DNA from: Phycisphaerae bacterium
Lineage (GTDB): Bacteria; Planctomycetota; Phycisphaerae; UBA1845; Fen-1342
DNA length: 64,000 nucleotides
NCBI GenBank assembly: GCA_022072445.1
Contig: JAJVHV010000005.1
Coordinates: 62,001 to 126,000 of the forward strand
Direction of reading: 5' to 3'
Below the pieces are notes generated by a model. It was given only the letters and a program-made list of their open reading frames with translations, did no database searches and was not told the origin of the DNA. Below, in pieces: positions 1,765-49,534 of this stretch (positions are counted from its first letter, which is position 1; the number at the start of each line of letters is the position of its first letter). A program made the position numbers and the translations under genes.

Positions 1765-2439
1765 CTACTGAATCAGTGCCTCGCGCGGCGTCCATCGCAT
1801 CGGGGGCAACGTGTATTGCCGCGGGTCCTCAAAGGAGATCTCCGGGCTGTGATACGACAGCAACAGCAGGTTTTCGTTCTCGGCGCTGAAGGTGTGCAGC
1901 AGATTCCGCGTGAACACGAGCACATCGCCCGCATGCACGTCCGTCGAACGAATGTCGTTCCCGCGAAACGCCCGCCAATGCTCCTCCGACCACCAGAAGC
2001 GTCCATAGCCTTCGAGCACGGCGATGAACCTGTCGGAGTGCTCATGGACGTGTAGCGGCAGCTCGACCGTGCCGGCGGCAAAACGCAGTTTGGCGAGCCC
2101 GTCCTCGAAGGCCGGGCCGAACAGCTCGCGGCCGGACCAGAGACCACCGCTGATCGATTCCGTATCCTCAAACGGCGACCTCAGCTCGATTGGGTAGCAC
2201 TCTGCGATATCCGTCATGGCGGACCGAAGGTCTCGGTCAATCCGACCATCATCGCACGCTCCAAAGAGCAGCGTGGGCACCGCAAGGCGGCCACTGCGGA
2301 CGTCGGTCTCGACATCGTCCAGCACTCGACGCGCGATGCCGAAAAACCGGGACAGCGACCCCGCCCAACGGCTTGATCGAGTTCGCCCGCCGGTCAGGAT
2401 CTGCAAGCCAGGTTTCAGTGCGGCTTCTAACGTCGTCAT
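1765..2439 (-). CDS. Cupin-domain protein
   Basis: 224 residues. The C-terminal half has the two cupin motifs. The first is LPLHVHEHSDRFIAVLEG with paired metal-binding His and a following Glu/Asp position. The second is GDVLVFTRNLLHTFSA with the last His ligand. Together they predict a single double-stranded beta-helix, probably binding a metal. The first 110 residues are not recognised and may be an alpha-helical extension. Cupins range from isomerases and dioxygenases to sugar-binding sensors, and nothing here identifies the substrate. The start codon follows AAGGTGG. Only 76 bases separate it from the divergent membrane-protein gene at 2516, so the two may share a control region. Confidence 0.7.
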   Translation of the reverse strand: MTTLEAALKPGLQILTGGRTRSSRWAGSLSRFFGIARRVLDDVETDVRSGRLAVPTLLFGACDDGRIDRDLRSAMTDIAECYPIELRSPFEDTESISGGLWSGRELFGPAFEDGLAKLRFAAGTVELPLHVHEHSDRFIAVLEGYGRFWWSEEHWRAFRGNDIRSTDVHAGDVLVFTRNLLHTFSAENENLLLLSYHSPEISFEDPRQYTLPPMRWTPREALIQ

Positions 2440-2515
2440 CGGCCACCACCTTTCACGCGAACGGAGAGTTCGTCCTGCGAATCCGCCGGTCCACGGCGGT
2501 CATCTGATTCAGAGC

Positions 2516-3211
2516 ATGTCGAACATCAACGATCACACCTCGTTGGAGCATGGCCCGTTCGCCCGGGCGAATCTCGCTCCACGCGAGCGCATCGACCTCC
2601 TTCTTGAGGAATACCGGGCGATGTACGGCCTGCTCTCATTCCGGCTCGGCGTCGTCGACCAGAGGGTTCCGCTCACGGCCGGCACGCTCATGGCAGCCCT
2701 TGGCGCTGTACCGGCGTTGCCGGCGGAGTCGCAACTGATCGTGCTGCTGCTGATCCCGATCGGCATGGCGTGGCTCATGCGGCTGACGGTCGCCCACGCT
2801 CGCTCGAAGGAAGACGTCCTGCGACGCATCGACGAGATTGAACGACAGGTCAACCTGCTCGCCGGCGAAGAGCTGCTCGCTTTCCAGTCGCGGCATCCGA
2901 ATCGTTCCGCGACTATCAGCAGTGGCCGCACGGGAGCGGGCGCGGTGTCCTCGGTACTCGCGCTCAGCCTGGTCGGTCTGCTCGGATGTCTCGCACAGGC
3001 AGTCCACCATGGGATGCTCCACGACGCCGCTAAGTGGGCCTACACCGGCTACCTCGTCACCACGATGTTCGGCCTGCTTCATGCCGCCTTCCGCCTTCGC
3101 CACTACCGCTACGTCAAATCGCCGCCGGACCGTCCGCCGTTGGGGTGGGTGCTTGGCACCCTGGGACGCCCTTTGATGATCGTGGAAGCGTCGCACACAC
3201 ATTATAGATAG
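2516..3211 (+). CDS. Membrane protein with four predicted transmembrane segments
   Basis: 231 residues starting at the ATG at 2516; the frame is open upstream, but the sequence before this Met looks non-coding. Two hydrophobic segments around residues 50-90 (rich in Leu, Ile and Val) are followed by a charged helix at 95-130 that could form a coiled coil. Two more hydrophobic segments lie near 145-170 and 180-205, and the tail is basic. This suggests paired membrane hairpins with a cytoplasmic helical linker. I recognise no family. It lies just upstream of the five-gene ATPase/helicase operon, in the same direction but 66 bases away, so it may be accessory to it or independent. Confidence 0.65.
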   Translation: MSNINDHTSLEHGPFARANLAPRERIDLLLEEYRAMYGLLSFRLGVVDQRVPLTAGTLMAALGAVPALPAESQLIVLLLIPIGMAWLMRLTVAHARSKEDVLRRIDEIERQVNLLAGEELLAFQSRHPNRSATISSGRTGAGAVSSVLALSLVGLLGCLAQAVHHGMLHDAAKWAYTGYLVTTMFGLLHAAFRLRHYRYVKSPPDRPPLGWVLGTLGRPLMIVEASHTHYR

Positions 3212-3240: not shown

Positions 3241-3268
3241 TGGAAAGTCGCGGCACATAGCGTAAGAT
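3241..3268 (+). promoter_or_regulatory. Candidate promoter of the ATPase/helicase operon
   Basis: TGGAAA (3241-3246) and TAAGAT (3263-3268) are spaced 16 bases apart, each matching four of six consensus positions. Initiation about seven bases after the -10 would fall within a few bases of the ATG at 3278, which has no Shine-Dalgarno sequence. The transcript would then be nearly leaderless. This is an inference from spacing and weak matches. Confidence 0.35.
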
Positions 3269-3277
3269 GTCCGGGTT

Positions 3278-3625
3278 ATGGCGAAGAAACGCCCCAGCCT
3301 GCAGCGCGATTTCGGCGCCCGCGTGCGAGATCTGCGGCTCCGTGCCGGTCTGAAGCAGCGGGAGTTAGCCGAACGCTGCGGCAAGGGCTTCGCCATGCAG
3401 AGGGTGGGCCAGATTGAACGCGGCGAGATGAACTGCACGCTCCAGACCATCGCCTCCCTGGCCACGGGGCTGGGGTGTGAGCCGATTGAGTTGTTCCTCT
3501 TCCCCAATGTCGCGGCCACGATCGAAGCGCCACTGGACACCGCACGGCTGGCCGACCTGTGGCGGGCGGCTGATCGTCCAACGCGCCAAAAGATACTGCG
3601 TGTCTTGGCGGAGTTGCTCGGATAG
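3278..3625 (+). CDS. XRE-family helix-turn-helix regulator
   Basis: 115 residues. Residues 14-68 form a Cro/C1-type helix-turn-helix (GARVRDLRLRAGLKQRELAE, then a recognition helix, then QIERGEMNCTLQTIASLATG). The remaining 45 residues are a short helical tail with no sensor or peptidase domain, so it resembles the small repressors and activators at the head of restriction and defence cassettes. The stop codon (3623-3625) runs into AGGAG, the ribosome binding site of the next gene, 14 bases away, so it is almost certainly co-transcribed. It probably controls the operon's own promoter. Confidence 0.85.
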   Translation: MAKKRPSLQRDFGARVRDLRLRAGLKQRELAERCGKGFAMQRVGQIERGEMNCTLQTIASLATGLGCEPIELFLFPNVAATIEAPLDTARLADLWRAADRPTRQKILRVLAELLG

Positions 3626-3639
3626 GAGAAGCGCGGCGC

Positions 3640-4464
3640 ATGGACCTGCGACACGAGCTGCTAGACGGAATAAGGGACCTGTTGGCATCGGCGAGAGAAC
3701 GTACCAAAGCGCTCAAGGCGGACGCAGAAGCTGCCTCGCACACCGAGCGAGTCTGGGAGGCGCTGCTGGACTTCGTGACCAAGTCCTGGCCTCTCCACAT
3801 CCTCGACCTCTTGGACCGGGAGGCACGCACTTTAAAGGCCATGCGTGCCGAGGGACACCCAGCGATTGGCCAAATCGAGTGCTTATATCGTGGCGCGAAA
3901 GAGGAAGCCGACACGATCAAGCGGCGTTACCCCGGTTACCTGGAGGACGCGTGTCGATCCGCAGGATTGGTGCTCGACGCCGAAAGCAGACACCCTGCCT
4001 ACAGTTTGGAGCAGCGGTTCTTCCAGCTCAAAATAGACGAGCGGAAATGGACAGCGCGGCTCTCGGATCACGAAAGTCGTCTAGCCGAGCTCCCCGCCGA
4101 CGTAAACGCTATCGTCGACGTTATCCTAAGAGAACAGAAGCGCATATTCGGTCGGCCGTTTAGCGGCTGCAAGTTTCTGAAGCTCTTGCGCTCCCAGTAC
4201 GTAGCGGTCGCAAAGAAGAACAAACAGCCTGACGGAGCGAGCATCCCGATTCGCCATATTACCCGCCGCCTAGGTAAGAATGCGAAGGGTTTTCGCTCCG
4301 ATGAGTTCCTTGTCGATCTCTCGCGCCTCGTCGAGCAGGGGCCGATGGATATTGACGGCTATCGGCTGGACCTTCAGCAAACAAAAGACACGAACCAAGG
4401 CATGTTGCTCCATGGACCCGCAGGCCGCGGGTACATCGGCTTCGTTGTCTTCCGAAAGGTCTAA
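3640..4464 (+). CDS. Unrecognised protein, second gene of the ATPase/helicase operon
   Basis: 274 residues that I cannot place in a known family. The N-terminal 140 residues are mostly charged helix, plausibly coiled coil around 15-45. The middle (about 135-175) is also helical. The C-terminal 100 residues mix basic helices with a short beta-rich end (GMLLHGPAGRGYIGFVVFRK) and could be a winged-helix or other nucleic-acid-binding fold. No nuclease, methylase or protease motif is evident, and I see no TerB-like sequence, which is what the comparable Shango system has in this role. The start follows AGGAG, and only one base separates its stop from the next ATG, so it is translated with the ATPase. 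Confidence 0.8.
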   Translation: MDLRHELLDGIRDLLASARERTKALKADAEAASHTERVWEALLDFVTKSWPLHILDLLDREARTLKAMRAEGHPAIGQIECLYRGAKEEADTIKRRYPGYLEDACRSAGLVLDAESRHPAYSLEQRFFQLKIDERKWTARLSDHESRLAELPADVNAIVDVILREQKRIFGRPFSGCKFLKLLRSQYVAVAKKNKQPDGASIPIRHITRRLGKNAKGFRSDEFLVDLSRLVEQGPMDIDGYRLDLQQTKDTNQGMLLHGPAGRGYIGFVVFRKV

Positions 4465-4465
4465 C

Positions 4466-5731
4466 ATGGACACACGCATCGTGCCAACGCAGGTTGTCGA
4501 GTCCCTCCGCAAGGGCATTCCTCCCCAGCGCGGCGTCGACCTGTACTCTGTCGGCAACGAAAAACTTATCGACGGCATCAAGAAGTACCATCTCAGCGGC
4601 ATCGGCGATCGGGGGATCATCCGCTTTCTAAGCGGCTCCTGGGGCGCAGGGAAGACGCATTTCTTCCGCCTCTTACGTGAGGTTGCCTTTCAACATGATT
4701 GCCTCGTTTCAAATGTAGAGCTGGACTTGAATAGCGCCGCGCTCAACAAGTTCGAGAAAGTATTCTACGCCATAGTCTCGCATGTTCTGACCCCCACCTA
4801 CTACTCTGAACACGCACTCGTCGAAGCGGCTCCGTTCGGGACTGTCCTGCGGGAATCCCTGGCATATCTTGCGACAGGCACCCGGTCGATTGCCAATGAG
4901 ATTTCCTACGAGCAGTATGCAAGAGCCTCGGAATTGCTAATGGGTAACCACGCTATCGACATTGACTTTAAGAAAATGGTGCAACACTACTGGCACACAT
5001 TTCTGCCCGAGTCAGCCGACCCCGTTGTCGTGGAGCAGACGCGCGGGGAGATTCTCCAGTGGTTCTCTGGCGAAGGAACGGTCGGCCAGTACCGCAAGCG
5101 GTTCGGAGTGAGCAAGATGGTGAGCAAAGAGAATGCAAAGCTCATGCTCCAATCGCTGGCCGGTTTTGTCCGGCAGGCGGGTTACCGCGGTCTCGTGATA
5201 TTGTTCGACGAGGCGGAACAAGCCTACTCGGTGATGCGGAAGTCGGCGCTCCGCGACGCACAGAACAACCTGCTATCACTCATCAACAACATCGAGTCAT
5301 TGAGCGGTCTCTTCCTGCTTTACGCCACAACCCCCGATTTCTACACCGATCCTAAGCACGGTATCGTCACCTACGGCGCCTTGTCCGGGCGCATCGGAAA
5401 GCCGGAGCAACGGCATCCGCGAGCATTGGACACCATCTGGAACCTAGACGCAGTAGAAACGACCTTGACGGACTACCAGGCCGCCGCCAACAAAATTTGC
5501 TCGATCTATGCAACCGCGTTTCCCGATGCCCAGGCAAGCCTGCCGACCGAGGCGGCGGTTCAAGAGACCGTGGCCAAGCTATTTCGCATTCACCCATCAC
5601 TGGCGGCAATTCGCTTCTGGCGGCTACTGGTGAGTGCCGTGATTACGGACCTTGACGACCACCTTGAGGGCGAGGTGCGGGACACGGAGAAACTTTATGA
5701 CGATGTGATGGCTCGCCTGAAGGAGGAGTGA
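4466..5731 (+). CDS. BrxC/BrxD-type P-loop ATPase A (DUF2791 family)
   Basis: 421 residues starting at ATG 4466, with AAGG seven bases upstream. The N-terminus has the family signature VVESLRKGIPP (residues 10-20). Walker A is GSWGAGKT (57-64) and Walker B is LVILFDEA (243-250), followed by a sensor-like LLYATTPDFY around 285. This pattern matches the ATP-binding proteins of BREX (BrxD and the BrxC core) and SngB of Shango. In those systems the ATPase works with a helicase in phage defence; the exact reaction is not settled. It is followed at once by a second, divergent paralogue. No pglZ or pglX is present, so BREX itself is excluded. Confidence 0.88.
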   Translation: MDTRIVPTQVVESLRKGIPPQRGVDLYSVGNEKLIDGIKKYHLSGIGDRGIIRFLSGSWGAGKTHFFRLLREVAFQHDCLVSNVELDLNSAALNKFEKVFYAIVSHVLTPTYYSEHALVEAAPFGTVLRESLAYLATGTRSIANEISYEQYARASELLMGNHAIDIDFKKMVQHYWHTFLPESADPVVVEQTRGEILQWFSGEGTVGQYRKRFGVSKMVSKENAKLMLQSLAGFVRQAGYRGLVILFDEAEQAYSVMRKSALRDAQNNLLSLINNIESLSGLFLLYATTPDFYTDPKHGIVTYGALSGRIGKPEQRHPRALDTIWNLDAVETTLTDYQAAANKICSIYATAFPDAQASLPTEAAVQETVAKLFRIHPSLAAIRFWRLLVSAVITDLDDHLEGEVRDTEKLYDDVMARLKEE

Positions 5732-5733
5732 TC

Positions 5734-6927
5734 GTGAACCTCGCGCAGGCCCAGCGAGTCATCGAGTCGCTAAGGAAGGGCATCCCGCCGGATGGGTTCA
5801 TCCGTCACTTCACCGTTGGGCGCGCATCCGAGGTCGCGCAGCTGACGGAGAGGCTGGACGACATTGTGCCTGGTGCACTGCTGCTTAAGGCCAACTACGG
5901 GTCCGGCAAGACTCACCTGTTACGTTTTGCCAGAGAGTGTGCGCTTGAAAAGGGCTTTGCCGTCAGCACGGTAACTTTGGACTGCAAAGGGGCAGTCCGT
6001 TTCAACCGCATGGACCAGGTGTTTGGAGCCATCTGTCGAAATATTGAGGTTCCTGACGGTCTTGGGCAAAAAGGCATCCGTTCTGTGTTGAACTTTTTAG
6101 TTGAGAAGATCGAGCACGCCAAGTCCGACACGGCGGGTGCATTCTGGCGCGATCTGACGAACAATTGGCGCTGGGATTATTCCGAAGTCCTTGATTCTCC
6201 GGCCGCTTTTGTCGCGCTGCGAGCTTGGGCGACGGGAAATTCCACGGTGCACGACCGGGTCGAAGACTGGTTGCTGTCTCCTTGGAGCTATCGGACTCAG
6301 CGCAGCAAGCTCTATTCTGACCTGATCGGTTCCTTGCGACGCTTCTTTCATGACCCGCGACCTGAGCGGCACTTCTACAGAGATGGAGTGTTTGAGTTTC
6401 ATACGCAAGGCTACGCACAAAGCTGGTCGGCGCTCCGTGACCTTCAACGCCTCTTGTGTGAGTCAGGTCTCAACGGACTGGTGTTGCTATTCGACGAGTA
6501 TGAGGATGTCGTCACAAATCTGAGAAACGTGGCGCATCAGGAGGCGGCATTCTGGAATTTGTTCCAGTTCTACGGCGGCAAGCAGTTCCCCGGTCTGTCC
6601 TTTTATGCCGTCACGCCGGAGTTCGTCGAGAAATGCGTCACGTTGCTAACCGGCAAGGGCCGATGGGACTATGACTATGGGCGATTCAAGGCAATCCCCA
6701 CCTTCCAGATGAGTCCTCTTGACGTGGAAGAGCTGGAGGAGCTGGCCATGCGCATTTTGGAGACGCATGGAATTGCCTACGACTGGGAACCCGACCTGGT
6801 GATGCTCTCCACGGAGCTGGACAAGATCGTTCGCAAGGCGGCTTCCGTGCAGGTTCAAGACCGGGCGCGCCATACGATTATCACCGTTGTGAAGGCGCTC
6901 GACCGCCTCCTTGAGGAGAGTGCATGA
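5734..6927 (+). CDS. BrxC/BrxD-type P-loop ATPase B (DUF2791 family)
   Basis: 397 residues if translation begins at GTG 5734, which lies 7 bases after a strong AGGAGG; GTG 5728 is possible but too close to that site. It shares IESLRKGIPP (residues 10-19) with ATPase A. Walker A is ANYGSGKT (53-60) and Walker B is LVLLFDEYE (249-257), and FYAVTPEF follows at the sensor position. The central regions of A and B differ greatly, so they are old paralogues or partners, not a recent duplication. Both keep the nucleotide-binding residues, so both are probably active and may form a mixed ring. Its end overlaps the helicase start by four bases (ATGA). Confidence 0.88.
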   Translation: MNLAQAQRVIESLRKGIPPDGFIRHFTVGRASEVAQLTERLDDIVPGALLLKANYGSGKTHLLRFARECALEKGFAVSTVTLDCKGAVRFNRMDQVFGAICRNIEVPDGLGQKGIRSVLNFLVEKIEHAKSDTAGAFWRDLTNNWRWDYSEVLDSPAAFVALRAWATGNSTVHDRVEDWLLSPWSYRTQRSKLYSDLIGSLRRFFHDPRPERHFYRDGVFEFHTQGYAQSWSALRDLQRLLCESGLNGLVLLFDEYEDVVTNLRNVAHQEAAFWNLFQFYGGKQFPGLSFYAVTPEFVEKCVTLLTGKGRWDYDYGRFKAIPTFQMSPLDVEELEELAMRILETHGIAYDWEPDLVMLSTELDKIVRKAASVQVQDRARHTIITVVKALDRLLEESA

Positions 6928-9032
6928 GCGGCGTCGACCTGCTCGATCGCCGAGTGGCGACAGCCTTTTATGGCCGATTTGAGTCACTGCGCGAGGCGCA
7001 GCAAGCGGCAATCGAGCCAATCCTGACCGGCCGCAACGTCATCCTGTCCGCGGGCACCGGTTCAGGGAAGACCGAAGCCGTCACGGCCCCGCTCATGAGT
7101 CGTCTTTGGCGGGAAGCCGTCAAGACGGACGGTCTGGTACTGCTCTACGTTGCACCGACGAAGGCCCTCGTCAACGATTTGGAGAAGCGTCTGTATCAGC
7201 CGCTTTACTCCCTCGGGCTACGGGTTGGCGTCAGGCACGGTGACCGGGACGACCTAGCATCCGGTCAAACGGTTCATGTGTTGGTGACGACGCCAGAGTC
7301 CCTCGACGTGATGCTGTTCCGTAAGGACGCGGCCCTCAGTAATGTCCGCGCTGTGGCCATCGACGAGGTACATCTGCTTTACAACACGCAGCGCGGGCTT
7401 CAACTGTCGATCCTGCTCCAGCGGTTGCAGGATCGACTATGCGAGCCTTTCCAGTGGGCGGCGCTCTCTGCCACGATCGGCGATCTGTCCGATGTCCATT
7501 CCTTCCTCGCTGGCAGTGATGAGGCCCCGGTATTCCTGTCGTATCCCTCGCATCGCACGATCGACGCTCAGATCAGACACATCGCAGCCGAGTCCGGTTT
7601 TCTCGACCTGGTTCGCAAGCTAACTGACGGCAGGCCGACGAAACTGCTGGTGTTTGCCAACTCGCGGAAAGAATGTGAACGGCTTGCCGGCGTCCTCCAG
7701 CACGACCCCTCGCTGCTACACGCCGTCTTCGCGCACTATTCATCGCTGTCCCCGGACGTCCGCCTCGATACGGAGAAGAAGTTTGCCGCTTCCAACACCG
7801 CCATCTGCCTGGCGACGAGCACCCTTGAGCTGGGTATTGACATTGGCGACATTGATGCGGTCCTATTGTGGGGTGCGCCCGGGGGCGTGGAATCGTTCCT
7901 TCAACGAGTCGGCCGCGGCAACAGGCGGGCGCACAAAACGAACGCGGTCTGCCTGATCCCTGACACCTCGGAATCGGTCGGATGGGATGCGCTCCGCTTC
8001 GCTGCACTCGTTGATGCGGCCCGTAAGGGCGAGCTTCCACAGCGACGCCCCTACGAACTTTACGGGGCTGCCGCACAGCAGATGCTCAACGTGATCGCCT
8101 CGGACGGTGGACGGTTTACGAAGGTGGCCGACTTGTGCCAGCTCGTCCGACACAAGCCGTACCTGGGTCGCCCGACCGTTGAATCCATCCTCGCGCAACT
8201 GGCAGCAAACGGCCACCTCCAGGCACATGGCTTCAAGAACCAATACGGGGCCGAAGAGCCGCTTCATGAACTTGTTGACTTCCAAATGATTTACGGGAAT
8301 TTCGCGGCCGGCTCTCAGACTGTGGACCTCTTCCACGGAGCTAAGCGGCTCGGTGACGTGCCTGCGACCAACCTGCTTCGGATACACCGTGGCTCCGAGG
8401 TGCGCTTCGCTGGGAAGTGCTGGCGAGTGCAGAAGGCATCACGCGACAAGATATTGCTAACGCCGACGCGGCCTGGCAATGCCATGGACTTCACCTACAC
8501 CAGCGGCGGAGTGCAGACGGATAGTTTTGTCGCCAACCGGGTCTGGCAACTCCTTCATTCCCACCAGTTCCCAGAGGACCTGTTCGCACTGTCGCTGCGG
8601 CGCACCGTGATAGAAGCGAGAGCCAGGCTTCGGGCGGCCTGTACAATGAATCAGATACCATATGCCCGATCGACTGATGGCATTCGATACTTTACGTTTT
8701 CCGGCTACTTGGTGAACAAAGCCGTTGGCCTGATCTCGCGGAAGGCAACGTTCAAGGCAAGGGAGGCGTCGCTATTGGTGCCTTCACCCATTGACTGGGC
8801 TACGATTCCACCCGAGCCGACGGCGTATGAAGGCGTATTCCCGTCGCTCTTCGAGGAGTCGTCGGAGCAGTCCCTCTATCAGGCCCAACTTCCGGCGGAA
8901 CTACAGCTTCGAGAATACCTGGAAGACTGGCTCAAGGATCAGGCGGTTGCCGATGCGCTTGTCAGGCTCGTCCGATCGACTCCCGTAGCAGTGGATCCGG
9001 CGTCAGTGGCGTTCTTTGCCGGTGCTTGCTGA
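6924..9032 (+). CDS. DEVH-box superfamily 2 helicase, Lhr/BrxHI-like
   Basis: 702 residues. The motor motifs are clear: Walker A SAGTGSGKT (42-50), a Ia-type YVAPTKALVNDL, a Ib-type TTPESLD, DEVH (147-150), motif III SAT, VFANSRKE opening the second RecA domain, and motifs V/VI (LATSTLELGIDIGDID, then FLQRVGRGNRR). This is the Lhr-like pattern of BrxHI and SngC. The last 300 residues are a variable region without the Zn-cluster of larger DUF1998 helicases. GAGGAG precedes the ATG, and the start overlaps the upstream stop (ATGA), so it should be made in fixed proportion with ATPase B. It probably translocates on or unwinds invading DNA. Confidence 0.9.
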   Translation: MSGVDLLDRRVATAFYGRFESLREAQQAAIEPILTGRNVILSAGTGSGKTEAVTAPLMSRLWREAVKTDGLVLLYVAPTKALVNDLEKRLYQPLYSLGLRVGVRHGDRDDLASGQTVHVLVTTPESLDVMLFRKDAALSNVRAVAIDEVHLLYNTQRGLQLSILLQRLQDRLCEPFQWAALSATIGDLSDVHSFLAGSDEAPVFLSYPSHRTIDAQIRHIAAESGFLDLVRKLTDGRPTKLLVFANSRKECERLAGVLQHDPSLLHAVFAHYSSLSPDVRLDTEKKFAASNTAICLATSTLELGIDIGDIDAVLLWGAPGGVESFLQRVGRGNRRAHKTNAVCLIPDTSESVGWDALRFAALVDAARKGELPQRRPYELYGAAAQQMLNVIASDGGRFTKVADLCQLVRHKPYLGRPTVESILAQLAANGHLQAHGFKNQYGAEEPLHELVDFQMIYGNFAAGSQTVDLFHGAKRLGDVPATNLLRIHRGSEVRFAGKCWRVQKASRDKILLTPTRPGNAMDFTYTSGGVQTDSFVANRVWQLLHSHQFPEDLFALSLRRTVIEARARLRAACTMNQIPYARSTDGIRYFTFSGYLVNKAVGLISRKATFKAREASLLVPSPIDWATIPPEPTAYEGVFPSLFEESSEQSLYQAQLPAELQLREYLEDWLKDQAVADALVRLVRSTPVAVDPASVAFFAGAC

Positions 9033-10179: not shown

Positions 10180-11085
10180 TTAGTCCCCCGTAACGGTTTG
10201 CATGGCGGGTTCGGCCGGTTGCTCCAGCGCGCGCGGCACGCAGAGCGTCCCCTCGGCAAGTTCTGGCAGATTGCCGCTCAAGAACAGGCTCCGGTGTCGA
10301 ATGCGGTGCTCGATCTCGGCTGCGAGCCGCAGGTACTGATGTGCGACCGGATTCCTCAGATAGCTATCCAATTGAAACAGCGTCCGCCCGCGTCCCGACA
10401 ACTCCGGGATCAACACAGCCTGCGAAATGTGCGTCGCGAACTGCCGGCCCGGCAACGCGATGGCGGCGGCCGCTTCAAGCTCCGCACGAAGCCGTGTCGC
10501 ACGACCGTCGACGTTGGAGAACACGATGCCGAGCACTTCAAGCGCCGCATTACGGTGCGTACGCACGTCCGAGATGTCACGAAACGCCTCGCTCAGCCCA
10601 CCCAGCGAGAGCGGATGCGGAAACGCAGAGAGCAGGATCCACTCGGCAACCGAGTACGCTGCGACCGTGGTCGTTGCGCCTGCAAATGGCGGCGTGTCCA
10701 GAAGAATGAAATTGTACGAACGGCGAATGGCGCGGAGCGGAGCGTCGAGCAACCTTGACCGATCCGTGAACTTGGATAGCGCCGCATCGAGTTCAGACAA
10801 CTGCGGACGTGCCGCAATCAGATGAACGCCATGTGGCAACCCTTCGGTGATGAGCAATTGATCGATTGCTTCACGTTCTGTGAGCAGCTCCAGAGTTCCC
10901 GCGTACTGATTCTCTGGGACCCCCAGGTGTCGCGTCGCCCCGGCAGCCGGATCGAGGTCGATGATCAGGCACCGATATCCACCTTGCCCCAGCGCTGCCG
11001 CCAAGTGCACCGTGTTCGTTGTCTTACCGACGCCGCCCTTCTGATTGCCGACCGCAATGACGGCTCCGCGAATTCGCTCCCTCAT
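10180..11085 (-). CDS. parA: ParA-family partition ATPase
   Basis: 301 residues. The deviant Walker A of the ParA/MinD class is at residues 13-21 (NQKGGVGKTTN) and has the signature lysine. LIIDLDPAAGAT follows near 40-50, and the Walker B-type NFILLDTPPFAGA near 125-135. There is no N-terminal HTH, so it resembles the short ParA of type Ib plasmids. ParA ATPases move DNA over the nucleoid together with a centromere-binding protein, here probably the gene just downstream. Its start faces the divergent replication-like gene across a 563-base region. The pair argues that the island can exist as, or comes from, a plasmid-like element. Confidence 0.9.
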   Translation of the reverse strand: MRERIRGAVIAVGNQKGGVGKTTNTVHLAAALGQGGYRCLIIDLDPAAGATRHLGVPENQYAGTLELLTEREAIDQLLITEGLPHGVHLIAARPQLSELDAALSKFTDRSRLLDAPLRAIRRSYNFILLDTPPFAGATTTVAAYSVAEWILLSAFPHPLSLGGLSEAFRDISDVRTHRNAALEVLGIVFSNVDGRATRLRAELEAAAAIALPGRQFATHISQAVLIPELSGRGRTLFQLDSYLRNPVAHQYLRLAAEIEHRIRHRSLFLSGNLPELAEGTLCVPRALEQPAEPAMQTVTGD

Positions 11086-11648
11086 ATTCCCCCTCCCCCA
11101 ATCTTTGCTGACTGAGTTTGTGCCCGATGCCGTCGCCGCGCTCGCGCGAATGCCCGCGTGCGGGATGGCATGGTTCCCTGTCTGAATAGCACGATTCGAT
11201 CAAGGGTTGCAAGTTCGAATTCGGGGTGACGAGGCAATCGGATCCGTCCTGACCGGCGAACCCGCTGTCGTGATGACGGGGCGACCGGAGGGCCGGCACG
11301 CCGAAACCGTCTTGCGCGATCGACTCGTTGCAAGTTACGGTTGCTCCGCATAGGCACGCGGCTGCATCCAAGCAGATCAGCTTGAAGAATAGGAGAGCGC
11401 ATGAGATGACTTGAAGAAACGGAGGGCAAGAACGGCAACGTGGAGGTCGCCATTCTTGCGGCTGACGGACGACATGAACGTCGGGTGCGGCAGCGGTTGA
11501 TTGAGCCAAGGTCACCGTAGCGCAGCTCCGCGCGTGATGTCAATCCCGTTCCAGCCGAACAATGAAAGTGTGCCCGCGACCCGCCCGTCCGTTTCGGGGC
11601 AACGCGAACGCCCGTCGAATCGTTCGCACAAACAGCGTTTGAAATTGA
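11086..11648. other. Divergent intergenic region, candidate origin or partition site
   Basis: 563 bases lie between the starts of parA (leftward) and the replication-like gene (rightward). Open frames here overlap on several strands and none has a ribosome binding site or recognisable product. The arrangement (par operon, non-coding gap, rep-like gene) is where plasmids keep an origin and centromere. I did not find a convincing iteron series or AT-rich block by eye, so the origin role rests on position only. Confidence 0.35.
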
Positions 11649-12992
11649 ATGAAACAGCAGATTGGGGCGTGGTCATACACGCCCGAAGAAGACACTCGAA
11701 GGAAGGGTGCAAAATCCCGTGGAACATATCGCCAGAGCGAATATGCTCGAACCAAGCCGGAGGGCGGATTCTGCTTCATCCCGGCAATGGTCATTATCGG
11801 CGCGTGGTGGGCCTTCCGAGCCCGGTTTGTGACGCTGGGAGACCTGCGAGTATGGCTTGCTTTCTTCGAAGTCGTGGCGAGGCGCTGCGGCGATCGCCCC
11901 AATCGTTCCCTGAATTCCGTGGAACATGAGCTGATCGACCTCGTCGACGGGTCAGAAGCACAGGTTCGAACATCCATTCGGCGGCTTGAGCGAGCCGGTC
12001 TCTTGCTGCGGAACCGAACAACGTCTCGCTGGTATCGGCTCCCGGAGCCGCCGGCCGCTGACGAACAGGAGAATCTCGCAGCCACAATTCGAGGCGTCGA
12101 GAACCATCGCCGGCGGGCGCCTGTCCCGCGACGGGTCATTCGCTACCTGTGCCGCGCGACTCGTCCCGTGCTGTGGGCGACCGTGCTCGGACACGTGCTC
12201 CGTTGCCTGTACTACCGCAACGGGCAATGCGCGCCGGATGGGCGGTGCAAGTCCTCGTGGGTTGCCGACGTGTTCGAGGTAGATCCACGCAACGTCAAGG
12301 CGGCTCGTCGCGAACTGGTCGAGTTGGGCGTACTCATCATGGAACCGACCGATCAGCGCTCGATGAACCGTTTTGGTCCGCGTGTTCGGTTCAACCTTGA
12401 ATGGAACGGCGTTCCTGCCTGCCGGCGACCACCACCCCCTCGGCCTAGCTTCACCGCCGGATCACCACCCCCTAAGAAAGACAGGGAACTCGCTTCGCGA
12501 TGGGAAGACCAGAAACCGTGGCCGGCGGCTGGTGTTCGTGAACGGTCGCCACGTTGGCGGGTCGCACCGTCAGACCTCGATTCACCAAACGGGCTCGGCA
12601 AGCTGTTTGAACAGCTCGTCGCGTGCGGCGCCTGCAAGGCGGGAGAGGCTGCTCGCTTGAATCTCTTCGCGGCGGCAGCCCGGACGCGGCGCGTCGCTAC
12701 GCGAAATCCGGCTGGTTTTCTGGCCGCGCTGGTCCGCTGGAAGCACTGGGACTTCGCAAGCCATGCCGACGAAGAGGCTGGGCGGGCCTGGCTTATCGAG
12801 CTTCGAAAACAGCGTTACGCACTTGGGCAGGTGAGCGAACCACAGACCAGTCGCGATGTTTCGCGACCACAGTCCCGCGAGCCTGTTCGCGCGGCAAACA
12901 TGCTGCAGGCTGTGCTGAGCTCGACGACAGCCTCCGCTCGATTCATCGCGCCCAGCTCCCGTGCTGAAACTGAAGCCGCAATCAGGAAGTGA
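11649..12992 (+). CDS. Winged-helix plasmid replication-like protein
   Basis: 447 residues. Residues 60-140 form a likely winged helix (HELIDLVDGSEAQVRTSIRR, then LERAGLLLRNRT and a wing). A second one follows at about 185-250 (SSWVADVFEVDPRNVKAARR, then ELVELGVLI). Two tandem winged helices are typical of RepA/RepB-type plasmid initiators, although the helper sequence elements that would prove this are not visible. The middle is proline-rich and the C-terminal third is helical and basic. It starts opposite parA and ends 11 bases inside the convergent integrase gene. A transcription factor of the element is the main alternative. Confidence 0.5.
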   Translation: MKQQIGAWSYTPEEDTRRKGAKSRGTYRQSEYARTKPEGGFCFIPAMVIIGAWWAFRARFVTLGDLRVWLAFFEVVARRCGDRPNRSLNSVEHELIDLVDGSEAQVRTSIRRLERAGLLLRNRTTSRWYRLPEPPAADEQENLAATIRGVENHRRRAPVPRRVIRYLCRATRPVLWATVLGHVLRCLYYRNGQCAPDGRCKSSWVADVFEVDPRNVKAARRELVELGVLIMEPTDQRSMNRFGPRVRFNLEWNGVPACRRPPPPRPSFTAGSPPPKKDRELASRWEDQKPWPAAGVRERSPRWRVAPSDLDSPNGLGKLFEQLVACGACKAGEAARLNLFAAAARTRRVATRNPAGFLAALVRWKHWDFASHADEEAGRAWLIELRKQRYALGQVSEPQTSRDVSRPQSREPVRAANMLQAVLSSTTASARFIAPSSRAETEAAIRK

Positions 12993-14211
12993 CATCGCGT
13001 GAAAGCTGGTGACGGACCCACTCCACGACCTTGCGGAACTCCGGCCGGACAGGCCGCATGTAAGCATCCGCCATGTCAGAACTGGAAGCGTGCCCCAGCC
13101 ATCGCTTCACGTCGCTGATCGACGTGCCCGGCCGCGAGCCGAACTCTGTTGCGCCGAGGTGTCTTAGCGTGTAGAACCCTGGAATGGTCTCTTTCGATTC
13201 GCCGACCTTCGTCCGCAGCTTGTCCCACCACTGCGTGACCGCGTTGCCCCGATGGTGGACGAGAGCAACGCCGGTGCGAGTGACGAATAGCAGCTCACCA
13301 ACCGGCCGCTTGACGGCCTCTTGGTACTTCGAGACGAGGGACCACACGCGCGGCGGCGTGGAACCGTATCGCTCCACACCCGTCTTCGCACGACGCAGAT
13401 CGTAAGAGTCCTGGTCGATCTGGCCCACGCGAACTACCGCGAGGTCCTTGGCGCCCAGGCCGAGCCCGATGCCAAGCCAGATCATCGTCTTTCCCCGCAG
13501 GTCGGCGCCGTTGATCATCTTCTGAAGGAGCTCAACGGTGGGGAGCGGCCGCTCAGGTGTTGGTGTTCCGTGGGCAACGTCCCTTGAGTCCCAATTCCAC
13601 GTCAGCATCTGGCGGCCGTGTTCGGGCCGGCCGGCGCGGTCGATGATCGCCTTGACAATCTGAAGCCGCTTGGCGACCTGCGAGTCGGAGTAGCCGGATT
13701 TGACGACGTGCTGGTTGAATGCTTCGACGTCATCCATTGAAAGGTCGCACAAGCGCATCCGCGATACGGCTCCGACGCCGTGTCGTGCATTGATGAATTC
13801 GAGGATGTCGCGGATGACCTTCGCCCGGTCGCGAAACACAGGCGCCGCGATGGTTCCCCGGCGACGCGGTTCATCGGGCTTGCGGATGCGAAGCCGCTCA
13901 GACTCCTTGAGCCCACTGGCGACCTCCAGCAGGCTCCCGGAGAGGGCCTTGCCGCTTGGCTTCCGCTTTCGCGCCGGCTCCACCTGCGTGGGGAGTTTCC
14001 CGGGGCCGTTGCCGCCGAGCTTCTCAGCAACCCAGGCGTGGTAGAGTGCGAGGGCCTCCTTCTCGCGCTCGCGTTCGACTATCCTGAACCGGTGACGACG
14101 CGAGTGGCCGGTCTGCGGGTCGCGGTAGCTCACGTGCCAGCCGACGTTCCGGGTGGCGTCGAACTTGAGCTTCGGAATGCGGGTCCGCGTCCGTCGACGC
14201 CGATTGACCAT
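12982..14211 (-). CDS. Tyrosine-type site-specific recombinase (integrase)
   Basis: 409 residues. The first 80 are basic, as in arm-type DNA-binding domains. Residues 140-220 look like a SAM-like core-binding domain. The catalytic domain ends with LRH (in FYTLRHLGATEF), LGH and the nucleophile Tyr in MADAYMRPV. The first catalytic Arg is not obvious (GLGLGAKDLAVV stands where GxRxxE is usual), and the His of box II is replaced by Tyr. I recall similar changes in other planctomycete integrases. The gene begins 107 bases before tRNA-Gly, the classic target of such enzymes, and marks the right edge of the island. Confidence 0.88.
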   Translation of the reverse strand: MVNRRRRTRTRIPKLKFDATRNVGWHVSYRDPQTGHSRRHRFRIVEREREKEALALYHAWVAEKLGGNGPGKLPTQVEPARKRKPSGKALSGSLLEVASGLKESERLRIRKPDEPRRRGTIAAPVFRDRAKVIRDILEFINARHGVGAVSRMRLCDLSMDDVEAFNQHVVKSGYSDSQVAKRLQIVKAIIDRAGRPEHGRQMLTWNWDSRDVAHGTPTPERPLPTVELLQKMINGADLRGKTMIWLGIGLGLGAKDLAVVRVGQIDQDSYDLRRAKTGVERYGSTPPRVWSLVSKYQEAVKRPVGELLFVTRTGVALVHHRGNAVTQWWDKLRTKVGESKETIPGFYTLRHLGATEFGSRPGTSISDVKRWLGHASSSDMADAYMRPVRPEFRKVVEWVRHQLSRDVTS

Positions 14212-14268
14212 CGGCCAACTCCGTGCATAATGGAGGGTGTCCGGCTGCCTGACGACAGCCTAGCCGCT

Positions 14269-14303
14269 GGCCTTAAGTTGTGCAAGAAGTCGGCCTTAAG
14301 TTG
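14269..14303. repeat. 12-base direct repeat between integrase and tRNA
   Basis: GGCCTTAAGTTG occurs at 14269-14280 and again at 14292-14303, a spacing of 23 bases (about two helical turns). Repeats at this spacing between an integrase gene and its target suit arm-type binding sites for the integrase or an excisionase. No copy was noticed on the far side of the tRNA. Confidence 0.6.
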
Positions 14304-14318
14304 CGAATAACCGCGTTT

Positions 14319-14390
<72 letters not shown>

Positions 14391-14506
14391 ATAGTTGTAA
14401 ACGTAGCCGCCCCGCAGACTTGCGGTGACCCGCCGAAGCATGTCAAGACGGCAGTCACGTAGATCGCGTCGATCCTCGCGGCCTTCATCGACGAGAAACT
14501 CGATCA

Positions 14507-17500
14507 TCAGGGGGGCACGGGCTGGAAGACATCCGGGTTCTCCGCCTCTTCTGGAGACCCGTCCGCAGGGCCACCGCCGGTGACCGACACAAACGCTGGA
14601 TAGCTGCCGACCGAGCCGCAGGCGTTGGTCACGGTGCATTCGAAGCGGCCGGTGGTGCCGACCGCGGCGGTGAAGGCGAACGAGGGCTCGGTGGCGCCGT
14701 CGATGCAATCGCCGTTTCGCAGCCACTGATAGCTGAGCGGCTCGGCGCCGGTGGCGGCGACGGTGAGCGTGACGAGGGCGCCGGAGAGGACGGTCTGCGA
14801 CTGTGGGCGCTGGATGATCCGGACGGGTTCGATGCCTGATCCGGGCTCGCAGCTTGTGAGCGACTGGATGAAGATGTTGTCGAAGGACGTGCCGTTGACG
14901 ACGCCGTCGAGCAGGGCGATCTTGCCGGCCGGGAAGTCGGGCGTGACGAGCGTCGTGCTGGGCGTCAGCGAGTCGTTGGCCCACGCGGTGTAGGTGTCGC
15001 CGCGCACTTCGATCCGCAGGTGCAGTGTCTGGCCGGCCGTGTAGACATTCTGCGCGATGTTCTGGGCACTGTTGTAGCCGCTGCCGTAGTTGCGGTGCCA
15101 GTAGACGTCGCCTCCGCCCCAGGGATAGGCCTCGCCGAACGCGAGCACCACGCCACGCGGATAAGGAAGCGCGGAGGAGAGGCTGGAGCGAAGGTAGATT
15201 CCGCCGTTGGTGTCGAAGTTGGCATGTGAGGCGTTCACGACGTCCAGCTCGATGAGAAAGTCCGACTGCGGCAGCGTGAACGAGCTGTAGGCCGAGTTCT
15301 GGTAGATCGTCGGCGTGCCCGCGGCGTACGAACCGTCGACAATTGCCCAGTTGCCGCGTTCGTTGGCCCAGCGGCTGGCGTCTTGCGGCAATGCGAACTT
15401 GTTGACGCGCGGGGGTGTTTCGAGGGTAACGACGTTGCTGCGGACGGTGTTGGTGGAGTTGGTGACGATGACCTGATACAGGTCCGTGTCCAGCGGCTGC
15501 GTCGGCGAGATGGTCAAGGTCGGCGTGGTGGTGCCGGTGACGCGCGCGGTTTCGTTGAGCGGCACGAACAGGCCGCCGACGTTGCGGCCCCACTGATAAT
15601 TCAGCGGCGGCTCGCCGACGGTGTCGACGGTGAGGCTGGCGGTCGCGCAGCCGGCGACGAACTGGTCGGCGACGGGCGCGATGATGCGTGCGCCGGGTGC
15701 GATCGTCATGACGAAGCTGACGCCGGCGCTGGCGATGACGCTAGCGCCAACGCGCGTGTCAACGGGCGCCGGCAGGTATCCTGACTCGGTCCCGTTGAAC
15801 GGACGTCCGAGCTGGCCGGAGCCGTTGCTGCCGCAGGTCCAGATGGTGCCGTCGGTGGCAGTGAAGACGCTGAGCGCGTAGCCGGCGGCGACGGCCCGCA
15901 CGTTGCCGACATTGATTACCGGGGCCGGCGTCGGGTAGCTCGCCCACATCGGGGCGCCGGTTCCCAGTGCGTGTTCGCCGTTGTATCCCCAGGCCCAGGC
16001 CTGACCGCTGGCCAGACGGGCCACGCTGTGCAGATTCCCCGCGGCCATGCCCGCAACACTTGCGAGCCCGCTGACCTGTACGAAGCGGTTGCGGTTCTGC
16101 GTTGTGCCGTCGCCGAGCTGGCCGTAGTTGTTCCAGCCGCAGGCCCACAGCGTTCCGTCCGCCAGGAGCGCCAGCGTGTGGCTGCCGCCGCAATCCACGT
16201 CGACGACGTTGCTGAGATCCGCGACGCGCACGGGGAGATTCGATGCCCCGCCGGTCGTGCCCTGACCGAGCTCGCCATTGCCGTTGGTGCCCCACATCCA
16301 GAGCGAGCCATCGCCGGTGATGGCAGCGGCATGGTAGTTTCCGATCGAAATGTCGACCACGCACTCCAGATTCACCTGTCCCGGGTTCAGCGCGACGCCG
16401 CTGGCCTGGTAATACCCGAGCAGGCCCTGGTAGTTGCTGCCCCAGGTCCAGACGTGGCCGTTGGCGTCGAGGGCCATGCAATTACCCTCGGGAGAACCGG
16501 CGGCGACTGCCACGACGTCCGTCAGAAAGTTGACCTGCACCGGCGTTGCGCTCATGTCGCTGGTTCCATTGCCCAGGTAGCGCGACCCCCAGGTCCAAGC
16601 CGTCCCGTCTGACATCACCGCGATCGAGTTCCAATAACCCGCTGAGACCCCGACAGCATTCGACAGGTTGATTACGTCCGCCGGGTTCACATCGGAATCG
16701 GGCAGTGTCGAACCGCGGCCCAGCATTCCATAGGTGTTGCGTCCCCAGCCCGTGATGCGGTGCCCCAACGGGTTGGCGTCGATCACGCGGACCGATATGG
16801 GCGGCGAAGTGGTCGACTGAGTTGAGCCGTCGCACTCGTTGGGAGGCGCGCCGTCGCAGGACCGAATGCGCAACGTGTAACTGCCGGCGTCGCCGGCCAC
16901 GGCGTTCGTGATTGTGAGCATGTCAGTCGTCGCGCCGCTGATGCGTCCGTCGCCGGTATCGACGACGTCGGCCCCGTTGCGCTGCCAGCGCATGCAGGTC
17001 GAGTACTGCGACGCATTCGTGTCTACGGACAGTTGAATCGTCTCGCCTGTTCGATAGGTGCCGCAACCGTTCAAGCCGAGCAGCTGGAGCGTCGGAAGCG
17101 ACCAGCCGGCGACGTAGTCATCGGACACGGAAAGGGCGGTGCTGCGGAAGTCGAACTCGAAGTTTGGCAAGGCGGCGCGAAACGCGTTGATGAATTCCAT
17201 GACGCGGACGGGGCGTGAGGCTTTGACGACCGCGAGAATCTCGTCGGGCCCCAGCGCGAGGCAATCCTGCGGACAGGCGCTCTGCCCCGGGTCCTGCACG
17301 CCGTCCTCGATGTCGCGCAGCAGGGCCCCGACGAACCCCTCGGTGATGAGTCCGTTGTGCGCCGTGCCGTCACAGCACACGTCCGTTGCTTCCAGCGGCA
17401 GGTCGTTGACCGAGATCGGCGGCGGCCCGCCGTAGCGCGCCTGCCACATGCGGGTGACCACGGAGCCGAGCCAGTCGGGGAAGCCCTCGTTCCAGGCGTC

Positions 17501-18700: not shown

Positions 18701-18987
18701 GTCATAAACTCCCGTGCGTGCGATCGTGCGCGATCGCAACGCTTGACGAAAACGTTTCACGGATGGAAACACTCCGCGGGCCACTTGCGCCGACGACCAC
18801 GCTGCCGTCCACGCTGACACTGCTCACGCCGCGGTGATTCGTGCCGGCCAGAGGCGATCGCGACAAGTCGAACATGTGGCTTCATGATCGACACTCCGCT
18901 GACGCGGCACGCTCGCGGACGTATTTCCAGTGCGAACAGGTCGCGGCCTCACTCACGCGCGTCTCAGCGGATTTTGTGAACGGGGCG

Positions 18988-18993
18988 TATAAT
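18988..18993 (+). promoter_or_regulatory. Candidate -10 box (TATAAT) abutting the sigma-factor start
   Basis: A perfect TATAAT ends five bases before the ATG at 18999. Transcription starting 6-8 bases downstream would begin on the ATG itself, giving a leaderless mRNA. No Shine-Dalgarno sequence is present in the few bases available. I see no good -35 hexamer at 16-18 bases, which lowers confidence. Confidence 0.35.
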
Positions 18994-18998
18994 CGGCG

Positions 18999-19640
18999 AT
19001 GCTGGGCGCAACGGAGGTCGACCGCTTGATCGCCGAACAACGGGCCTTGGTGAGCCGCGCTGTGGCGGGAGAAAAGGACGCCCTGAGCGAATTGCTCGAA
19101 TCGTTCGGACCGGACGTTGAGGCGGCGTTGGTGATCGGCCCGCTCTGGCGGGGCATGCTCGATGCAGCCGACGTGATGCAAGTCACTTATTTGGAAGCCT
19201 TTGGGCAGATTGGACGATTCGATCCGTCGCGGCCGGAGGCGTTTCCGAGCTGGCTCCGCCGGATCGCGGAGAACAACCTGCGTGACGCGATTCGCGGCCT
19301 GGAAGCAAGGAAGAATCCCTCGCCTCGCATGCAACTCGACGCCTACGGCGGCGACGCCAGCCTGGCGTTATTCGACCTCCTAACGGCCGGAGTTGGCACC
19401 CCCAGTCAGGCGGCGCGGGGCAACGAAGCGAGCGAGCGTCTTCGGCGAGCCCTGCAATGCCTGCCCGCCGACTACGCCCGAGTCATTCAGCTCTACGATT
19501 TGGAAGAGCGGTCTGTGGAGGAAGTTGCCGCAGCGCTGGGACGTTCAACGGGGGCGATCTTCATGCTGCGGATGCGCGGGCTTGAGCGATTGCGGGCGCT
19601 CCTCGGCAGTCCGTCCGAGTTTCTTGAATCGCGGACGTGA
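18999..19640 (+). CDS. ECF-type RNA polymerase sigma factor
   Basis: 213 residues. Region 2 is seen around 45-105 (MLDAADVMQVTYLEAF, then FPSWLRRIAENNLRDAIR), and region 4 around 150-205 (LPADYARVIQLYDLEERSVE, EVAAALGRSTGAIFMLRMRG). There is a linker and no sigma-1 or sigma-3 domain. It recruits RNA polymerase to a dedicated promoter set. No zinc-binding anti-sigma gene follows; instead a Ser/Thr kinase with TPRs starts 31 bases downstream, the usual planctomycete pairing in which the kinase may control the sigma factor. The nearest candidate target is the large secreted gene diverging upstream. Confidence 0.9.
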   Translation: MLGATEVDRLIAEQRALVSRAVAGEKDALSELLESFGPDVEAALVIGPLWRGMLDAADVMQVTYLEAFGQIGRFDPSRPEAFPSWLRRIAENNLRDAIRGLEARKNPSPRMQLDAYGGDASLALFDLLTAGVGTPSQAARGNEASERLRRALQCLPADYARVIQLYDLEERSVEEVAAALGRSTGAIFMLRMRGLERLRALLGSPSEFLESRT

Positions 19641-19670
19641 GTTCGCAGGCCATTCAGACGCAGTGTTCAC

Positions 19671-22376: not shown

Positions 22377-22686
22377 GGTTCCGCTCGGGTAAGGCAGATC
22401 GAGTGCGGAGCCAGCTCTTCGTACCTGGCCGCGTCAGTCAGCGCTGCCACGACTACATACAGATTCGCTGGCGGATCGAACTCGGCACACATCACGCGTG
22501 TCAAATCACCAAACGGCCGGGACCGGCCGTTCTTCTGGAGAATCTGGACCCCACCCCAAAGACCGACGTAGATATTACCGTCGGAAACCGACGTGAGCGA
22601 GGCGTACGTCCAATACTTCAATGTTGTCGGTGGCGGAGTATCTGCAGGAAATCTAAAGAGAGAGACAAAATGGGCGTCACAGACCG
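22377..22686 (-). pseudogene. Middle fragment of a dockerin-locus secreted protein
   Basis: On the minus strand this stretch encodes a sequence aligning with residues about 170-240 of the intact neighbour at 23065-24165. Shared features include SDGNIYVGLWGG against PDGNVYFSVSGG, NGRSRPFGDLTRVMCAEFDP against NGRRRRFGDLSRVACIEFDP, and a following PxxNLYV. Nothing before or after it resembles the family: there is no signal peptide and no dockerin tail. At about 22684 it joins directly to the 533-base duplicated block. It is a truncated paralogue, probably non-functional. Confidence 0.75.
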
Positions 22687-23216
22687 ATGACGCCACACCA
22701 GGAATAGCAACCCGGCCGAGCCGCGACGTCGCCGCGCGGGATGCGACCCATCCGAGCCCCAAGCGCCAGCGCGCGGGCACTACTTGAAACCCGCGCCCCC
22801 TTCGCGCACATGCGTCCCCATCCGAGCCCCGACCGTCAGGGAGGGTTCGAACACGCGCGATCCGCGTCGCGCGCGAGGTTTCCTGTTCTATCGTCGCGCG
22901 CAACACCCCAGCCGAGCCCCGACCATGAAGGCGACCGAGGAGGGAGCCTGAATGGAGGGGTTTCGTAGCCCAGCAGGAGTGTCAACCGTATTCGACGGTC
23001 GTTCGCGCTGTGCCAGGAAACCGCTTGCTGACGCGCGCGGCTCGCTTGGCGTCCGCGCCTCGGCCTACGGCGTCTTCGTCAGCAGCTCGATGAACGCGTC
23101 GATGTCGAACGCGTTGACGCTGCCGTCGCCGTTCAGGTCGGCCAACATGCGGTCGCAGTGCGGCGCGAGGGCGTCGTAGGCCGCGTCGCCCATCACCGCC
23201 GCGATGAACGGGTCGA
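22684..23216. repeat. 533-base direct duplication, copy A
   Basis: This block appears identical to 24179-24711 (offset 1495). It contains the 3' end of the dockerin-tailed gene (the dockerin repeats and stop) plus the downstream non-coding sequence, itself rich in short dispersed repeats such as the GAGCCCCGACC family. Identity ends at 23217, inside the dockerin coding region. No transposase or inverted ends are present, so it looks like a homologous tandem duplication, not an insertion sequence. Confidence 0.9.
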
Positions 23217-24165: not shown

Positions 24166-24178
24166 ACGTGCATACTAC

Positions 24179-24711
24179 CCGATGACGCCACACCAGGAAT
24201 AGCAACCCGGCCGAGCCGCGACGTCGCCGCGCGGGATGCGACCCATCCGAGCCCCAAGCGCCAGCGCGCGGGCACTACTTGAAACCCGCGCCCCCTTCGC
24301 GCACATGCGTCCCCATCCGAGCCCCGACCGTCAGGGAGGGTTCGAACACGCGCGATCCGCGTCGCGCGCGAGGTTTCCTGTTCTATCGTCGCGCGCAACA
24401 CCCCAGCCGAGCCCCGACCATGAAGGCGACCGAGGAGGGAGCCTGAATGGAGGGGTTTCGTAGCCCAGCAGGAGTGTCAACCGTATTCGACGGTCGTTCG
24501 CGCTGTGCCAGGAAACCGCTTGCTGACGCGCGCGGCTCGCTTGGCGTCCGCGCCTCGGCCTACGGCGTCTTCGTCAGCAGCTCGATGAACGCGTCGATGT
24601 CGAACGCGTTGACGCTGCCGTCGCCGTTCAGGTCGGCCAACATGCGGTCGCAGTGCGGCGCGAGGGCGTCGTAGGCCGCGTCGCCCATCACCGCCGCGAT
24701 GAACGGGTCGA
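24179..24711. repeat. 533-base direct duplication, copy B
   Basis: Second copy of the 22684-23216 block, beginning 14 bases upstream of the start codon of the dockerin-tailed gene. Because the copies are in the same orientation, the promoter side of the intact gene now consists of former downstream sequence. Recombination between the copies would delete the intact gene precisely. Confidence 0.9.
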
Positions 24712-49501: not shown

Positions 49502-49534
49502 TCGGGTCGGTGACGGCGCTCTGAAAGGACCCTC

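Follow-up and report, generated by a model that had tools for sequence, protein, structure and literature searches.

The window analysed here is a stretch of 64,000 nucleotides from a Phycisphaerae bacterium (assembly GCA_022072445.1, contig JAJVHV010000005.1, positions 62,001 to 126,000), in which four tandem genes, here called P2, AT1, AT2 and HEL, stand directly behind a gene for a regulator of the XRE/Cro helix-turn-helix (HTH) type (Table 1). They encode a protein of unassigned family, two different AAA+ ATPases and a superfamily 2 (SF2) helicase. Between XRE, P2, AT1 and AT2 the gaps are 14, 1 and 2 bases in that order, AT2 and HEL overlap by 4 bases, and an alternative upstream GTG for AT2, at 5728, would make it overlap with AT1. 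The original prediction, made from the sequence alone, had described a five-gene operon and proposed it as an undescribed defence system. The five open reading frames (ORFs), their lengths, the gaps, the overlap and the Walker A and DEVH motifs are exactly as it gave them, and the five genes do lie in tandem, but the cassette itself has four genes, XRE being a gene of the element backbone. XRE matches Pfam HTH_31 (43 bits) and PADLOC Control_protein (38 bits). We rejected it as a fifth member of the cassette: its homologue in a related planctomycete element, L007 (57% identical, positions 16764-17096), lies about 4 kb from the cassette of that element, and other loci lack a homologue. In L007, which is on the same contig as L036, the regulator is preceded by a membrane-protein gene (15981-16592) that by eye resembles the gene upstream of XRE in the window. 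The unit is thus the four-gene cassette P2-AT1-AT2-HEL behind an element-backbone regulator. A promoter and terminator scan of the cassette region returned signals no more frequent than in shuffled sequences.

Table 1. Features of the cassette and of the element that carries it (window coordinates)
Feature	Positions	Strand	Remarks
XRE, XRE/Cro-type HTH regulator, 115 aa	3278..3625	+	element backbone gene
P2, 274 aa, family unassigned	3640..4464	+	first gene of cassette
AT1, 421 aa, AAA+ ATPase of BrxC/BrxD Pfam family	4466..5731	+	
AT2, 397 aa, second, different AAA+ ATPase	5734..6927	+	GTG start
HEL, 702 aa, SF2 DEVH helicase of BrxHI/SngC/Lhr type	6924..9032	+	
Small predicted membrane protein	2402..3211	+	directly upstream of XRE; element backbone; no Pfam match
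ParA-like ATPase of element	10180..11085	-	Pfam AAA_31, 117 bits
Putative tyrosine integrase, 409 aa	12982..14211	-	beside attachment (att) site; no Pfam match at E 0.05
att direct repeat, 38 bp, TGCGGGCGTAATTCAGTGGTAGAATGCCAGCTTCCCAA	14318..14355	+	exact; 5' half of tRNA-Gly; partner at contig C4:7919-7956
tRNA-Gly(CCC), integration target	14319..14390	+	ARAGORN

The four genes recur together in distant genomes. Queries with P2 returned the four genes on a cyanobacterial plasmid, on pDESTI.01 of Desulfomonile tiedjei and in another planctomycete from the order of the window's organism, and a P2 profile search added four distant planctomycete loci, in all of which P2 is followed by two ATPases and a helicase. 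Because a profile built from P2 alone retrieves loci with the other three genes in unchanged order, the cassette is not a chance grouping. A first scan of genome contigs with P2 alone found nothing; an alignment of AT1 succeeded, and a search of named genomes with it gave 51 loci. The loci fall into two clades with the same gene order. Clade A, which includes the window, has AT1 proteins 49-86% identical to that of the window among the tblastn matches listed and helicases of about 700 aa; clade B shows about 20-25% identity overall and has helicases mostly of about 530 aa. P2 is nevertheless homologous along its length in clades A and B (hhalign 99.4%, E 4e-21, 255 columns). The order P2-AT1-AT2-HEL is kept in 15 of the 18 examined clade A loci that are free of contig-end truncation, with intergenic gaps mostly between -4 and +4 bases; this count includes L029, whose P2 is in two ORFs. 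Three loci depart from it: L030, which has AT1 alone, L031, which lacks HEL, and L128, where AT2 is broken by an inserted gene and HEL was not found.

Clade A occurs in 14 phylum-level groups, namely Planctomycetota, Hydrogenedentota, Sumerlaeota, Cyanobacteriota, Chloroflexota, Thermodesulfobacteriota, Kryptoniota, Bacteroidota, Armatimonadota, Verrucomicrobiota, Acidobacteriota, Kiritimatiellota, Pseudomonadota and the archaeon Methanoregula, the copies from Bacteroidota, Sumerlaeota, Pseudomonadota and Hydrogenedentota being truncated or incomplete. The conservation of the core genes across phyla that the original prediction had asked about is thus found. Matches are rare (3 strong ones in 244 cyanobacterial genomes, 1 in 197 genomes of the phylum of Methanoregula and, among 392 planctomycete genomes, 1 strong one, the window's own). 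Within clade A, Kiritimatiellae and a betaproteobacterium group together in the tree (support 100), as do Methanoregula and cyanobacteria (89); a tree that does not track the organisms suggests horizontal transfer. Distances between gene copies are correlated for five of the six gene pairs, the value for AT2 and P2 (0.27) not being significant. In Microcoleus the cassette sits on the chromosome between miaA and a Uma2-type gene, and at the same site beside miaA a related cyanobacterium retains an AT1-only remnant. This pair (L127 and L030) is a natural decay series and counts for the dispensability of the cassette. Searches for the cassette in viral contigs (with P2 and AT2) and in phage records (with P2) found nothing, which neither supports nor refutes a role in defence.

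Both ATPases match the Pfam family BrxC_BrxD (PF10923) well above its gathering cut-off of 22.2 bits, AT1 with 156.8 and AT2 with 90.8. AT1 carries the Walker A motif GSWGAGKT and a Walker B motif with DEAE, AT2 has ANYGSGKT and DEYE, and Walker A is present in 18/21 clade A copies of AT1 and in all 21 of AT2. In a maximum-likelihood tree of 122 ATPases, the AT1 and AT2 proteins of clade A, those of clade B, BrxD and SngB form separate groups, each with support of 99-100 in the Shimodaira-Hasegawa-like approximate likelihood ratio test (100 for both clade A groups), the branching order among the groups being poorly resolved. The claim of two different ATPases of this family is borne out, each having a clade of its own. 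Against the NCBIfam equivalog model of BrxD they score 117.7 (AT1) and 76.4 bits (AT2), far under its cut-off of 350. The AlphaFold model of AT2 has a mean predicted local distance difference test (pLDDT) score of 90.5, and Foldseek aligns it to ORC/Cdc6, DnaA and BrxC chains with probability 0.99-1.00, modest E-values of 0.005-0.02 and template modelling (TM) scores of about 0.4.

HEL matches the PADLOC BrxHI profile with 320 bits over residues 18-680 (profile positions 21-688 of 698), above its score of 267 bits for SngC, and its SF2 motifs II, III and VI are present in all 18 clade A copies. The solved sequences nearest to it are the Lhr-type ATP-dependent DNA helicases 5v9x and 7lhl; a DEVH helicase with Lhr/BrxHI motifs had been read correctly from the sequence. 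Lhr is a stand-alone repair-related helicase, whereas HEL comes together with two ATPases and P2. We recognised no nuclease domain in P2, AT1, AT2 or HEL.

P2 has no match in Pfam, PADLOC or NCBIfam, and its sequence finds only coiled-coil noise in the PDB. Its AlphaFold model is of high confidence (pLDDT 96.0, predicted TM score 0.86) and consists of a long helix and a helical, coiled-coil bundle up to residue 107, a small beta domain, and a domain of helices and strands at residues 172-274. This last domain gives weak winged-helix matches with Z of about 6 in VIA-align, the best (Z 6.0) to ORC/Cdc6 chains and others to linker histone and similar winged helices; since such matches are a common background, only the general class is claimed. 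The C-terminal end of P2 is thus winged-helix-like and probably DNA-binding, judging from its predicted fold. P2 was also considered as a TerB protein and rejected: it has no Pfam TerB match, and a profile comparison with the TerB protein encoded in this genome shows no similarity. BrxA is not among the fold matches listed for P2, which excludes nothing.

The cassette resembles two known defence modules and belongs to neither. Like Shango (SngA-SngB-SngC; PMC10250203), it has a BrxC/BrxD-family AAA+ ATPase directly followed by an SF2 helicase with matches to BrxHI and SngC, with one more protein upstream, and it is carried on plasmids and islands. Shango, however, has one ATPase and a TerB-domain protein, whereas the cassette encodes two ATPases, each from a clade of its own, together with P2, which is helical, winged-helix-like and unrelated to TerB by sequence. 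The same genome holds a complete, separate Shango on contig C6 (L008:7778-13803; a TerB protein of 801 aa, SngB and SngC), which contains the only TerB match of the genome, and TerB is indeed missing from the cassette, as had been noted. The cassette shares its combination of ATPase and helicase with the BrxD-BrxHI dyad of type 2 BREX, for which loading of the helicase by the ATPase has been proposed (PMC12839542), and differs from it in that AT1 and AT2 fall below the BrxD equivalog cut-off, in the lack of PglZ in its own genome and in that dyad and cassette stand side by side in Aulosira. The DUF499 BREX-related, BRC and ARMADA/BRIGADE/TALON systems are likewise catalogued defence systems centred on helicases or ORC-type ATPases, with other core proteins as far as the available parts of PMC12839542 and PMC12458937 describe them; word searches of these papers for TerB, Shango, SngC and two ATPases gave no cassette of this kind. 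We found the cassette neither in the PADLOC 2.0, NCBIfam and Pfam libraries nor in the open-access papers searched on BREX, Shango, ARMADA/YprA helicases, Hachiman and two-ATPase BrxD-like systems, and no catalogued system in these sources has the same gene order, in agreement with the proposal of a different minimal system. Since it lacks defining features of both Shango and BrxD-BrxHI, the cassette is best classed as a variant of the defence type that pairs a BrxD-type ATPase with a helicase. A search with BrxD-like ATPases also gave matches in plasmid records of Klebsiella (446) and Salmonella (142); the few regions inspected were all Shango and not this cassette, including the loci on the conjugative plasmids NZ_MN823998 of Klebsiella and NZ_CP120340 of Salmonella (L112, L113).

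The cassette is carried by an integrative element of 68.4 kb bounded by the 38-bp att repeats. The element also encodes a TrwC relaxase and a TrwB-like coupling protein, and the C-terminal sequence of the putative integrase beside the att site is tyrosine-recombinase-like. The carriage on a mobile element that had been suggested is thus confirmed by the repeat in tRNA-Gly and its copy 68.4 kb away, the putative integrase and the relaxase. In the related L007 element a backbone helicase is 74% identical to that of the window's element, while the cassette proteins are 36-49% identical and lie at a different location; a cassette that has diverged and moved relative to a shared backbone is as expected if each element acquired its own copy. 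Other copies are on plasmids of Aulosira laxa (plasmid3, 18893-24287) and Desulfomonile tiedjei (pDESTI.01, 10215-15641).

Several clade A loci adjoin defence genes. In a Verrucomicrobiales genome (L033) a type 1 BREX operon encloses the cassette, with PglX 42 bases before it and PglZ, followed by BrxL, 25 bases after it, and in Aulosira (L009) it lies behind a type 2 BREX operon, PglX-PglZ-BrxD-BrxHI. A type IIG restriction-modification (RM) system stands upstream of the cassette in L038, where DruE follows 5 bases downstream; a type IIG RM fragment is near it in L021, type I RM methylases in L128 and AbiEi/AbiEii in L010, and the window's own element carries HmaA-like and HmaC-like genes. 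The original prediction had noted the absence of BREX genes. In the genome under study PglZ (PF08665) has no match at all, and none of the scanned neighbours in the element (part of its genes) matched PglX, PglW or BrxC; the absence does not extend to the two genomes just named, which carry the cassette inside or behind a BREX operon. In a verrucomicrobial genome from Kiruna (L069), three BrxD-like ATPases in a row and a helicase stand beside the DISARM gene DrmMI, P2 not being recognised; this locus is a further variant and a relative of the cassette.

We consider it likely that the four genes P2-AT1-AT2-HEL make up an undescribed system of defence against invading DNA, carried in this genome as cargo of the 68.4-kb element, and the claim is restricted to clade A, including the window. 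The analysis shows the conservation of the four genes, the separate ATPase clades, the intact motifs, the predicted folds and the mobile and defence-rich contexts, whereas the defence role itself, the complex, the helicase loading and the target are inferred. On our best reading the cassette would work like Shango or the BrxD-BrxHI pair. P2 could be a DNA-binding adaptor, with its helical part and its winged helix, and AT1 and AT2, as AAA+ proteins putatively of the ORC/Cdc6 kind, could assemble into a hetero-oligomer on DNA that is singled out by P2 or by some state characteristic of invaders. This assembly would load or activate HEL, a step that we infer from the loading proposed for BrxD and BrxHI (PMC12839542) together with the fold and sequence likenesses of P2, AT2 and HEL. 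HEL would then remodel or stall the invading DNA, and its replication would be blocked. The block may be non-nucleolytic, because no nuclease domain is recognised in the four proteins, or the DNA may be handed to host nucleases. A broader proposal, about which we are somewhat more doubtful than confident, is that the cassette represents a large undescribed defence family of bacteria and archaea, in which two different ORC/Cdc6-like ATPases and a new winged-helix adaptor recognise invading DNA and disable it by loading a helicase onto it, a nuclease of its own being lacking and the chromosomal branch perhaps being housekeeping.

A number of observations weigh against a defence role. The defence neighbours are an association, given without a background frequency and not as a statistical test, genes in defence islands can be hitchhikers, and PADLOC profiles also match generic ATPases and helicases. 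On the structural side, the Foldseek E-values of AT2 are modest, and P2 has no Foldseek match under E 0.001, the best being a weak one at E 0.28. Clade B raises a further difficulty: P2 of its type was found in 45/189 Myxococcota genomes sampled, its loci are mostly set amid ordinary chromosomal genes, their flanking genes are common to related genomes, and five of them have no recognisable HEL. The wider family may therefore be partly non-defensive, clade B looking chromosomal and perhaps having another role. One could go further and regard clades A and B together as an old chromosome-maintenance or transcription-linked machine, of which clade A has merely moved onto mobile elements. The frequency of clade B in Myxococcota and its shared flanking genes would fit, as would an N-terminal, small-barrel-like extension on many clade B AT2 proteins (for example L043, L058, L061 and L068), which by eye is Tudor/CarD-like and follows roughly the pattern V.H..YG.G.V...R..GYE..V.F, some of these loci lacking a helicase. 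However, clade A lacks this extension, as do some copies in clade B, and Pfam does not match it; clade A is also rare, patchy and associated with defence genes, which makes such an origin for the cassette very unlikely.

The same contexts can be read in other ways. That the cassette serves BREX or RM as an accessory module, boosting, regulating or backing up a neighbouring modification-based system, is suggested by its places inside and behind BREX operons and beside type IIG or type I RM and DruE, and by BrxD and BrxHI themselves being BREX subunits; most carriers, however, have no adjoining BREX, the genome under study has no PglZ, Aulosira has both BrxD-BrxHI and the cassette, so that one does not replace the other, and BxaP provides a precedent of a gene inserted in BREX loci that protects independently (PMC10799925). 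We regard an accessory role as rather unlikely. The cassette could also be only a Shango variant, with P2 in place of the TerB protein and a duplicated ATPase; both systems pair a BrxD/SngB-like ATPase with a BrxHI/SngC-like helicase, and Shango likewise is plasmid-borne and can adjoin AbiE genes. Such a derivation appears unlikely given that AT1, AT2, SngB and BrxD are four separate supported clades, that no relation between P2 and the TerB protein of its own genome is detectable and that this genome holds a complete Shango elsewhere. Finally, the predicted ORC/Cdc6/DnaA-like AAA+ fold of AT2, the winged-helix-like end of P2 and the helicase could together make an initiator set, and a replication, partition or stability module of mobile elements would suit the Aulosira and Desulfomonile plasmids and an integrative element with its own ParA. 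It would not suit the chromosomal Microcoleus site with its decayed remnant in a relative, the copy within a BREX operon, or the different places that the cassette takes in related elements, where it is more diverged than the element backbones, and we hold this function to be very unlikely.

The BrxD-BrxHI and Shango modules are tied to protection, and the cassette offers a compact related version of four genes with two distinct ATPases and a new adaptor, P2. The idea of helicase loading is directly testable, with a high-confidence model of P2, dozens of natural variants and plasmid copies in the cultured Desulfomonile tiedjei and Aulosira laxa. If the defence role is true, a widespread system would be added to the defence catalogues, and the link to a chromosomal sister clade could reveal the origin of such systems.

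Other genes of the element lie to the left of the window. An HmaA-like gene (533 bits; C4:32061-35624, equal to L117:12061-15624) and an HmaC/DUF499-like gene (254 bits; C4:44646-47969, equal to L016:2647-5970) possibly form a split or variant Hma system, and the same element encodes a protein of 1301 aa with a CHAT protease and tetratricopeptide repeats (L016:13212-17117, equal to C4:55211-59116). Within the window, positions 48542-50479 hold two tandem prepilin-like genes with nearly identical N-termini.

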